Shown: positions 35,896-41,537 of the stretch, piece by piece
Position numbering within the stretch: the stretch's first letter is position 1
How the letters are laid out: the number at the start of each line of letters is the position of its first letter
NCBI GenBank assembly: GCA_003223455.1
Contig: QHVE01000058.1
Coordinates: forward strand, 81,927-127,694
DNA length: 45,768 bases
Source: Gemmatimonadota bacterium
Lineage (GTDB): Bacteria > Gemmatimonadota > Gemmatimonadetes > Gemmatimonadales > Gemmatimonadaceae
Direction of reading: 5' to 3'
Notes under the pieces: generated by a model
Seen by the model: only the letters and a program-made list of their open reading frames with translations
What the model was told of the DNA's origin: nothing
The model's database searches: none
Translations under genes and position numbers: made by a program

Positions 35896-35924
35896 TTGCC
35901 CCCGCCAGGCACGGGTGGTATCTA
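35896..35924 (+). promoter_or_regulatory. Promoter for the methionine operon
   Basis: TTGCCC (35896-35901), a 17-bp spacer and TATCTA (35919-35924) give a plausible sigma-70-type promoter. The start site would be near 35931, just ahead of the riboswitch-like element. Confidence 0.45.
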
Positions 35925-35939
35925 TCGATGTAGGTCAAA

Positions 35940-35996
35940 CTGTCCCTCGTGGCGATTTCCAGCAAATTGCGGCCACGTTAATCCCCAGCTAAAGCG
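35940..35996 (+). promoter_or_regulatory. SAM-II-like riboswitch aptamer
   Basis: The element has stem CGTGGC (35948-35953) against GCCACG (35972-35977), with GATTT (35954-35958) at the start of the loop. GTTAA (35977-35981) follows the stem and AGCTAAAG (35987-35994) lies downstream, where it can form the pseudoknot with the loop. This arrangement and these conserved blocks match the SAM-II (metA-type) class as I know it. It lies immediately before an intrinsic terminator and metH, as expected for S-adenosylmethionine feedback. Covariance against the family model would confirm it. Confidence 0.75.
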
Positions 35997-36035
35997 CGAG
36001 CCCACACGCCGATCGCGTTTGGGCTCGTTTTTGTT
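35997..36035 (+). terminator. Attenuator-type terminator ahead of metH
   Basis: CGAGCCCA (35997-36004) pairs perfectly with TGGGCTCG (36020-36027) and is followed by TTTTTGTT. It ends 11 nt before the metH start and directly abuts the SAM-II-like aptamer, consistent with SAM-dependent premature termination. No Shine-Dalgarno lies between it and the ATG. Confidence 0.8.
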
Positions 36036-36046
36036 CGCGCTTCTCA

Positions 36047-39000
36047 ATGACCGAAATCCCACGCCCGGCCGTCTCGCATCCCTATCTCGACGCCCTCTCC
36101 GAGCGCGTGCTGGTTTACGACGGCGCGATGGGGACGAACATCCAGCGTCACAACCCCACCGCCGAGGATTTCGGTGGAAAGGCCCTGGAGGGGTGCAACG
36201 ATCACCTCGTCCTGACGCGGCCCGACATCATCCAGTCGATCCACGAGTCGTTCCTCGCCGTCGGCTGCGACGTCGTGGAGACGTGCACCTTTCAGAGCAC
36301 GCCGCACCGCCTGCGCGAGTGGGGGCTCGAGGAGAAGACCCGCGACATCAACGTCCACGCGGCGCGGCTGGCGCGCGCGGCGTGTGACAAGTTCGCGACG
36401 CCCGACCGCCCGCGCTTCGTCGCCGGCTCGATCGGACCGACCGGAATGCTGCCGTCGAGCAGCGATCCGGCGCTCTCGAACATCACCTTCGACGCGCTCG
36501 CCGAGACGTACTACTGGCAGGCGAAGTACCTGATCGAAGGCGGCGTCGATGTGCTGCTCGTGGAGACGGCGCAGGACATCCTCGAGGTGAAGGCGGCGCT
36601 GACCGGATTCGAGCGGCTGTTCGCCGAGCTCGTGCGACGCATCCCCGTGCAGACGCAGGTGACGCTCGACACGAGCGGCCGCATGCTGCTCGGCACCGAC
36701 ATCGCGAGCGCGCTCACGACGCTGCAAGCCATGCAGGTGGACGTGATCGGCCTGAATTGCTCGACGGGTCCCGAGCACATGCGCGAGCCGGTGCGATTCC
36801 TGACCGAGCACGCCTCGCGTCCGATCTCGGTGATCCCGAACGCCGGCCTGCCGCTCAACACGGGAACGGGCGAGGCGGTGTATCCGCTCGAGCCGCTCCC
36901 GATGGCCGCGATGCTGCGCGAGTTCGTCGAGCAGTTCGGCGTCCGCATCGTCGGCGGGTGCTGCGGCACCTCGCCGGAGCATCTCGCGGCGATCGTCGCC
37001 GCGGTGCGAGAGGCGGAGACGCCGCCGCATCGCGAGCACGGGCGCGAGGCGCTGGTGTCGTCGGCGATGCGCGCCACGTCGCTCCGCCAGGAGCCGCCGC
37101 CGCTGCTCGTCGGCGAGCGCGTCAACTCGCAGGGCTCGCGCAAGGTGAAGCGCCTGCTCCTCGCCGACGACTACGAGGGGATCCTCGACGTCGCCCGCGA
37201 GCAGCAGGAATCGGGTGCGCACGTGCTCGACGTGTGCGTCGCGCTCACCGAGCGCGGTGACGAAGCGGAGCAGATGTCCAAGGTAGTGAAGCTGCTCTCG
37301 ATGAGCGTCGAGACGCCGATCATGGTGGACTCCACCGAGGCGCCGGTGATCGAAGCGGCGCTGCAGCACATCCCCGGCCGTGCGATCATCAACTCCATCA
37401 ACATGGAGAATGGCCGCAAGCGCATCGACTCCGTCGTTCCGCTCGCCAAGAAGCACGGCGCGGCGCTCGTCGCGCTCACGATCGACCCGGTCGGGATGGC
37501 CAAGACGCGCGAGCGGAAGCTCGAGGTCGCGCGCGCGATTTACGACATCGTCGTCGGCGAGTACGGTCTCGCCCCCGAGGACCTCATCTACGACGCGCTC
37601 ACGTTCACCCTCGCCACGGGCGATCCGGAATGGATCGACAGCGCGAAGGAGACGATCGAGGGGATCCGCCTGATCAAGCGCGAGCTGCCCGGCGTCTTCA
37701 CGATCCTCGGCGTCTCGAACGTGAGCTTCGGGCTGGACCCGGCCGCGCGCTACGTGCTGAACTCGGTGTTCCTGCACCACTGCGTCTCGGCCGGACTCGA
37801 TGCCGCGATCGTCAATCCGGCGCACATCACGCCGTACGCCGAGATCACTGCCGAGCATCGCGCGCTCGCCGACGACCTCGTGTTCAACCGCCGTCCCGAC
37901 GCGCTGCAGCGGTTCATCGAAGGGTTTTCCGCCGCCACCGAGCAGGACACCGGCGCCGCGAAGGAAGATCCGACGGCGGGGATGTCGCCGGAGCAGCGCG
38001 TCCACTGGATGGTGCTGCACCGCAAGAAGGAGGGGATCGAGGAAGCGCTCGATGCGGCCGGCGTACGCGAGAACCCCGTGCGCGTGCTGAACGACGTGCT
38101 CCTGCCCGCGATGAAGGACGTCGGCGACAAGTTCGGTGCCGGTGAGCTCATCCTCCCCTTCGTGCTCCAGAGCGCCGAGGTGATGAAGAAGGCGGTGAAG
38201 CACCTCGAGCAGTTCCTCGAGAAGGCCGAGGGCTACACGAAGGGGAAGGTCGTGCTGGCGACCGTCTACGGCGACGTACACGACATCGGCAAGTCGCTCG
38301 TCAACACGATCCTCAGCAACAACGGCTACACCGTGTTCGACCTCGGCAAGCAGGTACCGGTGAACACGATCATCGAGAAGGCGCAGGAGGTCCAGGCGGA
38401 CGCGATCGGCTTGTCGGCGCTGCTCGTGAGCACGAGCAAGCAGATGCCGCTGTGCGTGCAGGAGCTCGACAAGCGCGGCATTCAGATCCCGGTGCTGATC
38501 GGCGGCGCGGCGATCAACCGCCGGTTCGGGCGGCGCGCGCTGTTCGTCGAGCCGGAGCGCGCGTACGAGTCGGGGGTGTTCTACTGCAAGGACGCGTTCG
38601 AGGGGCTCGAGACGATGGACGCGCTCCAGGGCGGCGCCGACCGACGCGAGGAAGCGATCGCGCGGCTCCTCTCCGAGGCGCGGAGCGACAGCTTCCTGCA
38701 CGGCAACGTCGGCAAGGACAAGGCGCAGGGGATCCAGGGCGGCGAGCGGAGCGACGTGGCGCACGATCACGCCGTGCCCGCGGCACCTTTCTTCGGCACG
38801 CGCGTGCTCGAGGAGATTCCGCTCGACGAGGTGTTCGATCTGCTCGACCTCGACGAGCTCTATCGCCTGCAGTGGGGCGGACGCGGCTCGGGCGCCGAAT
38901 TCGATCGCATGGTCCGCGAGGAGTTCGAGCCGGCGCTCGCGCGGCTGAAGGCGGAAGCGAAGGCGGAAGGCTGGCTGCAGCCGAAGGCGGTGTACGGCTA

Positions 39001-39571
39001 CTTCCCCACGCAGAGCATCGGAAACGATCTGATCGTGTACGAGCCCGAGCCGTACCAGCGCGACGGCTCGCTCGTCGAGCGGACGCGATTCCACTTCCCG
39101 CGCCAGGAAGGACGCGAGCGGCTCTGCATCGCGGACTACTTCCGCTCGTCGACGAGTGGCGACGTCGACGTCGTGGCGTTCCAGGTCGTCACGGTGGGCG
39201 ACGAGGCGACGCGCCGGTTCGAGCGCCAGCAGGCGGCCGGCGACTACAGCGAAGCGTTCTACGCCCACGGTCTCGCCGTCGAGAGTGCGGAGGCGGTGGC
39301 CGAGTGGCTGCACCGCCGGATTCGCCGCGAGCTCGGCGTACCGGGCGGACGCGGGAAGCGGTATTCGTGGGGCTACGGCGCGTGTCCCGACCTCGAAGAC
39401 CACGCGCAGCTGTTCAAGCTTCTCCCCGCCGAGGAAGCGCTCGGCATGGAGCTGACGTCGGCGTATCAGCTCATTCCCGAGCAGAGCACCGCCGCCGTGA
39501 TCGTGCACCACCCGCAGGCCAAGTACTACGCCGTGCGCACCGCCGCCGAAGTCGCGAGCGCCGGCGACTGA
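36047..39571 (+). CDS. metH: Cobalamin-dependent methionine synthase
   Basis: A 1174-residue, four-domain methionine synthase (E. coli MetH is 1227). It transfers the methyl of 5-methyl-THF via cobalamin to homocysteine. Residues about 1-325 are the homocysteine/zinc domain with ligands C238 (GLNCSTGP) and C305, C306 (GGCCGTSPEH). About 345-630 is the folate-binding barrel starting LLVGERVNSQGSRKVKRL. About 650-880 is the cap and B12 domain with the DxHxxG motif D743-H745-G748 (YGDVHDIGKSLV). About 920-1174 is the AdoMet-binding reactivation domain, including SWGYGACPDLEDH. All expected domains are intact. It is preceded by a SAM-II-like riboswitch and terminator, and followed 31 nt later by the MTHFR fusion gene. 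Confidence 0.96.
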   Translation: MTEIPRPAVSHPYLDALSERVLVYDGAMGTNIQRHNPTAEDFGGKALEGCNDHLVLTRPDIIQSIHESFLAVGCDVVETCTFQSTPHRLREWGLEEKTRDINVHAARLARAACDKFATPDRPRFVAGSIGPTGMLPSSSDPALSNITFDALAETYYWQAKYLIEGGVDVLLVETAQDILEVKAALTGFERLFAELVRRIPVQTQVTLDTSGRMLLGTDIASALTTLQAMQVDVIGLNCSTGPEHMREPVRFLTEHASRPISVIPNAGLPLNTGTGEAVYPLEPLPMAAMLREFVEQFGVRIVGGCCGTSPEHLAAIVAAVREAETPPHREHGREALVSSAMRATSLRQEPPPLLVGERVNSQGSRKVKRLLLADDYEGILDVAREQQESGAHVLDVCVALTERGDEAEQMSKVVKLLSMSVETPIMVDSTEAPVIEAALQHIPGRAIINSINMENGRKRIDSVVPLAKKHGAALVALTIDPVGMAKTRERKLEVARAIYDIVVGEYGLAPEDLIYDALTFTLATGDPEWIDSAKETIEGIRLIKRELPGVFTILGVSNVSFGLDPAARYVLNSVFLHHCVSAGLDAAIVNPAHITPYAEITAEHRALADDLVFNRRPDALQRFIEGFSAATEQDTGAAKEDPTAGMSPEQRVHWMVLHRKKEGIEEALDAAGVRENPVRVLNDVLLPAMKDVGDKFGAGELILPFVLQSAEVMKKAVKHLEQFLEKAEGYTKGKVVLATVYGDVHDIGKSLVNTILSNNGYTVFDLGKQVPVNTIIEKAQEVQADAIGLSALLVSTSKQMPLCVQELDKRGIQIPVLIGGAAINRRFGRRALFVEPERAYESGVFYCKDAFEGLETMDALQGGADRREEAIARLLSEARSDSFLHGNVGKDKAQGIQGGERSDVAHDHAVPAAPFFGTRVLEEIPLDEVFDLLDLDELYRLQWGGRGSGAEFDRMVREEFEPALARLKAEAKAEGWLQPKAVYGYFPTQSIGNDLIVYEPEPYQRDGSLVERTRFHFPRQEGRERLCIADYFRSSTSGDVDVVAFQVVTVGDEATRRFERQQAAGDYSEAFYAHGLAVESAEAVAEWLHRRIRRELGVPGGRGKRYSWGYGACPDLEDHAQLFKLLPAEEALGMELTSAYQLIPEQSTAAVIVHHPQAKYYAVRTAAEVASAGD

Positions 39572-39602: not shown

Positions 39603-41537
39603 ATGACCTCGCCCGCACTGGCCCGACTCGTCGACCCCGAAGCGCTCGTGCTGTTCGACGGCGCGATGGGGACGATGCTGTACGCCAAGGGCGTGTTCAT
39701 CAACCAGTGCTACGACGAGCTGAACGTGCGCGCCCCGGACCTCGTGCGCGACGTCCACCGCGCGTATGTGAAGGCGGGCGCCGAGGTGCTGGAGACGAAC
39801 AGCTTCGGCGCGAACCGGCTCAAGCTCTCGCAGTTCGGGCTCGCCGAGCAGGTGCACGAGCTGAATCGTCGCGCCGCGGAGCTGGCACGTGAGGCGGCCG
39901 AGCAGGGGCGCGACGTCCTCGTCGCCGGCGCCGTCGGACCGCTCGGCGTTCGCATCGAGCCGTACGGCCCGACGTCGCACGACGAGGCGCGTGCGTACTT
40001 TCGCGAGCAGCTCGAAGGGCTGAAGGCGGGGGGCGCCGACTGCTTCATCCTCGAGACGTTCGGGGATCTCGACGAGCTTGGCCAGGCGATCGCCGCGGCG
40101 CGGGACGTCGATCCCACGATGCCGGTCGTCGCACAGATGACGATCGGCGCGGACGGCCTCACGCCCTACGGCGCGACACCGGAGGACGTCGTGCATGCGC
40201 TCGACCGCTTCGGCGCCGACGTGATCGGCCTGAACTGCTCCGTCGGCCCGCAGACGATTCTCGAGGCGATCGAGCGGATGGCGCCGCTGACGCGGAAGAA
40301 GCTCAGCGCGCAGCCGAACGCCGGCATGCCGCGCGACGTGGGCGGACGAAGCATGTACATGGCGAGCGCCGAGTACATGGCGGAGTACGCGCGCCATCTC
40401 GTGCACGCCGGTGCGAAGGTCGTGGGCGGCTGCTGCGGCACCACACCCGAGCACATTCGCGCGATGTGCGAGTTCGTCCGCCCACTCAGTCCGCGCTTCG
40501 CGCAGCCGTCGGGCGGCGTGTCCACGGTCGCGGCGCCGCCGGTGCTGCGCGACGTGGCGCATCGCGCGCCCGACGTGCAGGCCGTGCCACTTGCGCAGCG
40601 CTCCAAGTGGGGGGCGAAGCTCGCGGCGGGCGCGTTCGTCACGTCGGTGGAGATCGTGCCGCCGCGCGGGGTCGACGCGACGCGTATGCTCACCGACGTG
40701 CGCAAGCTCAAGGTCGCGAACGTCGACGCGGTGAACGTCCCCGATGGGCCGCGGGCGCAGAGCCGCATGGGCGCCCTGCTCACGTCGCTGCTCATCGAGC
40801 AGCAGGTCGGGATCGAGACGGTGACGCACTACGCCTGCCGCGATCGCAACCTGCTCGGCATGCTGAGCGACTTGTTGGGAGCCGCAGCCATAGGGCTGCG
40901 GAACTTGCTGCTCATCACCGGCGACCCGCCGAAGATGGGCCCCTATCCGAGCGCGACGGCGGTGTTCGACATCGACGCGATCGGGTTGACGAACCTGGTG
41001 CGCAATCTCAACCACGGCCGCGACCCGGGCGACAACGCGATCGGGGCGCCGACCCAGTTCGTCATCGGCGTCGGCGTGAACCCCGCGCCGATCGATCTCG
41101 CGCACGAGCTCAAGCGGTTCGCCTGGAAGGTCGAGGCGGGGGCGGAGTTCGCGGTGACGCAGCCCGTGTTCGATGCGACGCAGCTCGAGAACTTCCTCCG
41201 CCGCACCGACGGCCAGCGCCCGCCGATCGTCGCCGGCATCTGGCCGCTCGTGAGCGTCCGCAATGCGGAGTTCCTCGCCAACGAAGTGCCGGGTGTCAGC
41301 GTCCCCGACGCGGTGATCGAGCGGATGCGGAAGGCGAGCGAGAGGTCGAAGGAGCACGCAGTCGCCGAGGGGATCGCCATTGCGCGCGAGATGCTCGATC
41401 GCGTGCGCGGCGGTGTGCAGGGGGTGCAGGTGTCGGCGCCGTTCGGAAAGGTCGAGCTCGCGCTCGAGGTCTTCGGCGACACCCTGGTTTCGATCGTCCC
41501 GGAGCCCACCGTCGTGCGCGCGTCCGTCTCCGCGTAG
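39603..41537 (+). CDS. Bifunctional homocysteine S-methyltransferase / methylenetetrahydrofolate reductase
   Basis: A 644-residue fusion like Bacillus YitJ. Residues about 1-300 are a homocysteine methyltransferase domain with zinc ligands C212 (GLNCSVGP) and C277, C278 (GGCCGTTPEH). About 335-625 is a FAD-dependent methylenetetrahydrofolate reductase, with TSVEIVPPRGVDATRM, THYACRDRNLLGMLSDLLGA-type sequence (THYACRDRNLLG), LLITGDPPKMGPYPSATAVF and AEFAVTQPVFDATQLENF. The reductase makes 5-methyl-THF, the methyl donor for MetH, so the two genes form a complete methyl-transfer unit. The Hcy domain keeps its zinc ligands and may add B12-independent or coupled activity. It lies within the presumed riboswitch-controlled operon. 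Confidence 0.93.
   Translation: MTSPALARLVDPEALVLFDGAMGTMLYAKGVFINQCYDELNVRAPDLVRDVHRAYVKAGAEVLETNSFGANRLKLSQFGLAEQVHELNRRAAELAREAAEQGRDVLVAGAVGPLGVRIEPYGPTSHDEARAYFREQLEGLKAGGADCFILETFGDLDELGQAIAAARDVDPTMPVVAQMTIGADGLTPYGATPEDVVHALDRFGADVIGLNCSVGPQTILEAIERMAPLTRKKLSAQPNAGMPRDVGGRSMYMASAEYMAEYARHLVHAGAKVVGGCCGTTPEHIRAMCEFVRPLSPRFAQPSGGVSTVAAPPVLRDVAHRAPDVQAVPLAQRSKWGAKLAAGAFVTSVEIVPPRGVDATRMLTDVRKLKVANVDAVNVPDGPRAQSRMGALLTSLLIEQQVGIETVTHYACRDRNLLGMLSDLLGAAAIGLRNLLLITGDPPKMGPYPSATAVFDIDAIGLTNLVRNLNHGRDPGDNAIGAPTQFVIGVGVNPAPIDLAHELKRFAWKVEAGAEFAVTQPVFDATQLENFLRRTDGQRPPIVAGIWPLVSVRNAEFLANEVPGVSVPDAVIERMRKASERSKEHAVAEGIAIAREMLDRVRGGVQGVQVSAPFGKVELALEVFGDTLVSIVPEPTVVRASVSA

Follow-up and report, generated by a model that had tools for sequence, protein, structure and literature searches.

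The window analysed here, a stretch of 45,768 nt from a Gemmatimonadota bacterium, contains a gene for cobalamin-dependent methionine synthase (metH), followed after 31 nt by a gene for a homocysteine S-methyltransferase/methylenetetrahydrofolate reductase (MTHFR) fusion. An earlier note on this DNA, made from the sequence alone, had proposed a SAM-II-like riboswitch with an attenuator in front of a metH/MTHFR operon, and the Pfam domains confirm both of these genes. The closest matches to the metH of the window, at 84–88% identity, derive from Gemmatimonadaceae or Gemmatimonadetes records and place the organism in the Gemmatimonadaceae. A position before methionine/SAM-pathway genes, here metH and the MTHFR fusion, is that expected of SAM-II. 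The features of the locus are listed below.

35896–35901 and 35919–35924, + strand: putative promoter TTGCCC-N17-TATCTA, weak, read in the sequence, approximately 24–52 nt upstream of P1
35948–35953 / 35972–35977, + strand: P1 stem, CGTGGC/GCCACG, 6 bp, perfect
35954–35958, + strand: GATTT in the P1 loop
35962–35963, + strand: P2a strand in the P1 loop
35967–35970, + strand: P2b strand in the P1 loop, UUGC (TTGC)
35977–35981, + strand: GTTAA block, read in the sequence
35987–35994, + strand: AGCTAAAG block, read in the sequence
35988–35998, + strand: 3′ strand of the P2 pseudoknot, GCUAAAGCGCG (P2b pairs 35988–35989, A-rich core 35991–35993, P2a pairs 35996–35997)
35992–35998 / 36014–36020, + strand: proposed antiterminator hairpin, AAGCGCG/CGCGUUU, 7 pairs
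35997–36004 / 36020–36027, + strand: intrinsic terminator stem, CGAGCCCA/TGGGCTCG, perfect 8 bp
36028–36035, + strand: terminator U-tract TTTTTGTT, directly 3′ of the 8-bp stem
36047–39571, + strand: metH, 1174 aa (Pfam S-methyl_trans, Pterin_bind, B12-binding_2, B12-binding, Met_synt_B12)
39603–41537, + strand: homocysteine S-methyltransferase/MTHFR fusion, 644 aa (Pfam S-methyl_trans and MTHFR)

All of the blocks named in the earlier note were located, at 35948–36035, directly before metH. The core pattern of the leader occurs once in the window and in none of 200 mononucleotide shuffles; by folding energy the leader does not stand out (z-score –1.6). The promoter that had been proposed ahead of the stem can be read in the sequence, but it is weak, and TTGCCC-N17-TATCTA was not called by a consensus promoter scan. 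In 44 of 66 leaders a CTTGC box precedes P1 by no more than 75 nt, the distance in most of them being 47–58 nt. The metH start codon, at 36047, is situated 11 nt past the U-tract, with no Shine–Dalgarno sequence between the two. This absence, earlier marked as worth checking, is real but recurs in several orthologous leaders; in several of these the U-tract runs straight into the ATG, and other genes of the window also lack a Shine–Dalgarno sequence.

Assignment of the leader to SAM-II

At the gathering threshold, Rfam called nothing in the window. For RF00521 (SAM_alpha) this cut-off is 36 bits, a curators' threshold rather than a structural feature. With lax filters, cmscan aligned the whole of RF00521 with the leader, the score being 22.3 bits (E 0.004); the Rfam search suggested with the original reading thus produced an alignment, but one that scores under the cut-off. 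RF00521 was the only credible Rfam family in the 251 bases scanned, and RF01726 (SAM-II long loop) gave no match to the window at E values up to 10.

A covariance model was trained on 38 metH leaders, all taken from Gemmatimonadaceae genera other than that of the window. This held-out model matches the window at 69.4 bits (E 1e–17), its sole match in the 45.8 kb, which bears out the SAM-II class proposed earlier. Another 30 metH leaders were matched as well; 29 of these come from records titled 'Gemmatimonad-', and the exception, L117, belongs to a record titled 'unidentified bacterium'. There were no matches among the Chloroflexota and Acidobacteriota metH loci examined. Orthologous metH leaders exceed the RF00521 cut-off, for example G291:C312:985-1060, which scores 48.9 bits and lies just before its metH. 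P1 covaries across the class (CGUGG/CCACG, GGUGG/CCACC, CGAGG/CCUCG and GGCGG/CCGCC). Both core blocks of SAM-II, the loop's GAUUU and the 3′-strand GCUAAA, are in register in the window, and P1 and the core are invariant in nine leaders of its own genus and nearly so in the 38 others. Because the held-out family model finds the window and the Gemmatimonad- leaders and no Chloroflexota or Acidobacteriota loci, the leader is, as judged from sequence comparison, a true SAM-II homologue by descent, its weak Rfam score reflecting divergence.

The element was found in all 49 of the metH leaders examined at family level (Gemmatimonadaceae), from which the 38 of the model had been drawn. Stem and pseudoknot blocks are conserved in 49/49, as the original reading had anticipated for metH leaders of the same phylum, and the shared architecture is CGTGGCGATTT - N - GCAA(A/C)TTGC - G(G/A)CCACG - GTTAA... 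- CGCTAAAGCGCC - terminator - T-run.

In the P2 pseudoknot of the window, P2b and two P2a pairs are present, and the third P2a pair is A·G. In the relatives this third pair is G-C in 27, A-U in 6 and G-U in 3 of 38 sequences. Within the genus of the window its 3′ base is always G, and its loop base is A in six leaders, U in two and G in one; the pair is lost in seven of the nine and is otherwise a wobble. No variation was seen among the nine in the other P2a pairs, P2b, P1 or the core blocks. The low Rfam score stems mainly from the shortened P2a of the genus, and the gathering threshold was missed because of this divergent P2a.

The loss of the third pair in 7/9 leaders might also signify that the leader has become a fixed attenuator, its shortened P2a having lost useful binding of SAM. 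The window element has, moreover, the lowest Rfam score of the three in its genome, ranking third by RF00521 behind elements of 43 and 40.4 bits that both exceed the cut-off. Degeneration of this kind is nevertheless considered quite improbable, as P1, GAUUU, UUGC, GCUAAAGCGCG and UCGCGU are all invariant in the nine genus leaders and the flanks vary, a pattern that suggests selection.

Terminator and alternative pairing

The attenuator of the original reading was confirmed in the sequence: behind the aptamer lies a GC-rich 8-bp stem and then the U-tract, as in a Rho-independent terminator. A simple terminator scan missed it because its loop is 15 nt long. In other Gemmatimonadaceae leaders, too, a terminator follows the aptamer.

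The 3′ strand AAAGCGCN, which closes P2a, has an alternative pairing partner at the apex of the adjoining terminator. This pairing is GCGCC/GGCGC in most Gemmatimonadaceae and GCGCU/AGCGC in one lineage; another lineage has CCGCC/GGCGG, which alters a pair outside P2a, and the genus of the window has GCGCG/CGCGU. Sister and more distant families display the same relation, with a 3′ strand GUGC and an apex GCAC, or with GAGU and ACUC. In the relatives both of the alternative pairings, that within P2 and that with the terminator apex, covary. UCGCGU is invariant within the otherwise variable terminator loops of the nine own-genus leaders. Of 60 distinct leaders, 54 form the fifth pair of the proposed antiterminator, compared with a permutation mean of 38; the pair is of the types CG, UA, UG and GC. 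In alignment A1, in which some misalignment is present, 93% of cells pair, as against 12–58% when the partners are slid. The independent covariation events are few, from about three lineages. Since compensating changes preserve it in other lineages, the pairing between the P2 strand and the terminator apex probably constitutes an antiterminator.

Folding of the nascent RNA was dropped as proof of an antiterminator, and complementarity scores of single leaders were weak (mean z ~1.6); covariation alone was kept. The case is founded on covariation and not on folding because nascent pairing is common in shuffled terminators, 88% of the shuffled segments passing the same criterion (0.88). In growing-transcript folds of the window, the antiterminator hairpin is the minimum free energy structure at about 36018–36022 and the terminator from 36024 on. 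The terminator has a folding energy of –23.3 kcal/mol (folded segment) versus –15.8 for the antiterminator, a difference of 7.5 kcal/mol. With the terminator so much more stable, antitermination would have to be kinetic, and read-through dependent on timing.

The interpretation preferred here, to which a probability of roughly 80% is assigned, is that a SAM-II riboswitch (an H-type pseudoknot aptamer) with a transcription-terminator platform controls the metH-MTHFR operon of this Gemmatimonadaceae bacterium, SAM turning it off by way of the terminator. Within this best explanation, SAM as the ligand, the OFF direction and the function of the antiterminator are what we infer. When SAM is bound, the P2 pseudoknot would sequester the strand GCUAAAGCGC, the terminator at 35997–36035 would fold and transcription would stop before metH. 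When SAM is not bound, the same strand would pair with CGCGUUU in the terminator loop, forming the antiterminator, which would delay or block the terminator and allow polymerase to read through.

SAM-II elements across the Gemmatimonadota

Matches to RF00521 over the cut-off were obtained in 174 of 298 Gemmatimonadota genomes (approximately 58%), versus 0 of 14 control genomes. The phylum is non-proteobacterial, as had been supposed, and SAM-II is widespread in it; the occurrence, taken earlier as worth checking, is not exceptional. The window element is an ordinary member of SAM-II, standard before metH in the Gemmatimonadaceae. A search of open-licence papers for SAM-II in Gemmatimonad* found nothing relevant.

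The genes directly behind the high-scoring SAM-II elements of the phylum include metH, MetH/MTHFR fusions, metF, a Cys/Met PLP-enzyme gene and, unexpectedly, panB. As the target in the window is a B12-dependent metH, versus the metA, metX and metY listed for α-proteobacteria (PMC4239095), a SAM-II-like fold sensing some other ligand suited to metH, such as SAH or a cobalamin or folate intermediate, might be envisaged. This is very unlikely indeed, given that the SAM-II core nucleotides are unchanged and that SAM-II in the phylum stands before metH, metF and the Cys/Met PLP-enzyme gene, a range of targets consistent with end-product control by SAM.

At L009, L011 and L012, a gene for a homocysteine methyltransferase/MTHFR fusion has its start codon 5–12 nt past the CUAAA strand. 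Their platform is probably translational, unlike the terminator platform of Gemmatimonadaceae metH; because these start codons sit at the end of the aptamer, SAM-II platforms appear to differ within the phylum. It could be argued from these three loci that the element in the window also acts mainly on translation, SAM blocking access of the ribosome to its entry site, with the hairpin no more than a constitutive attenuator, and Sinorhizobium meliloti metA indeed has a terminator behind a translation-controlling SAM-II (PMC9373788). This is unlikely for the window, where the Shine–Dalgarno-like AGAGG of the usual SAM-II aptamer is replaced by AGCGCG, metH starts approximately 50 nt past the aptamer, beyond the terminator, and the pairing of the P2 strand with the terminator is conserved.

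Elsewhere in the phylum, SAM-II elements of up to 60.6 bits are situated directly before panB (ketopantoate hydroxymethyltransferase), an unusual target, at L006 and L024 and, by sequence, also at L010 and L020. The two other elements in the genome of the window have distinctive surroundings. At L002:1501–1939 (+, contig C57), the 40.4-bit SAM-II and a terminator are followed by a Cys-rich short ORF (...CACMCPAIIACCCVAKRP...), a second terminator-like hairpin and an OsmC gene. This arrangement is a candidate tandem of a riboswitch and a cysteine leader-peptide attenuator. At L001:1577–1137 (–, contig C62), the 43-bit SAM-II is followed by a terminator, a short ORF with Cys/Met codons, a second terminator and a rhodanese-type sulfurtransferase gene. 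Among 30 rhodanese leaders of the family, 13 contain a short ORF in which Cys codons lie side by side, and SAM-II was present in those of this genome and one close relative only.

Many metH leaders of more distant families have the arrangement P1 - GGATTTG - GGCCGC - TTGC - P1′ - hairpin - GAACCAAAGRGYCTAAAGYGCCGGG. These variant Gemmatimonadota loci (L245–L265, L270, L271 and L274; e.g. L245:1501–1585, –) carry a hairpin of variable sequence between P1 and the CUAAAG strand. It directly follows P1 in 22/22 parsable linkers (mean z –2.4), and the variant P1 covaries. Of 295 genomes of the class, 38 are matched by a covariance model built from nine such leaders, which gave no match in the genome of the window. 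Of the 24 loci re-aligned, 20 were scanned against all Rfam families, and no SAM family matched at E values up to 1. The genes downstream, among those checked, are metH or the Cys/Met PLP enzyme.

For the phylum as a whole, it seems on balance likely that SAM-II is a main methionine regulator, with a conserved design in which one strand pairs with either the P2a loop or the terminator apex and its partners covary, and with a structurally new extra-hairpin variant, unseen by Rfam, that controls metH and the Cys/Met PLP-enzyme gene.

Comparison with known systems

The window shares with RF00521 the P1 stem, the strands of the H-type pseudoknot, GAUUU and GCUAAA in register, and a location in a methionine-gene leader. 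It differs in scoring under the cut-off, in the two-pair P2a of its genus, in its Gemmatimonadota host, in a 3′ strand without the Shine–Dalgarno-like AGAGG and in its putative target, metH-MTHFR, which is absent from the SAM_alpha targets listed in PMC4239095. RF01726 belongs to the same aptamer class and finds metH leaders in more distant Gemmatimonadota families, for example L080 (48.8 bits). The range of SAM-II, usually treated as α-proteobacterial, thereby comes to include a major phylum of soil bacteria, and cobalamin-dependent methionine synthase joins its putative targets.

SAM-II is often followed by a terminator (PMC1273637), and terminator-coupled SAM-II has previously been described in α-proteobacteria (PMC1273637, PMC2258182, PMC9373788). 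The SAM-II of S. meliloti metZ, predicted to terminate transcription on SAM binding (PMC9373788), has a terminator-type platform like that of the window, in another phylum and before another gene. Terminator-type SAM-II mechanisms were experimentally unestablished as of 2007 (PMC2258182), and the effects of SAM-II on gene expression were, according to a 2022 paper, previously unstudied (PMC9373788). The pairing proposed here provides a testable expression-platform mechanism for terminator-type SAM-II, for which the natural leaders, with their compensating changes in aptamer and terminator, constitute ready-made mutants.
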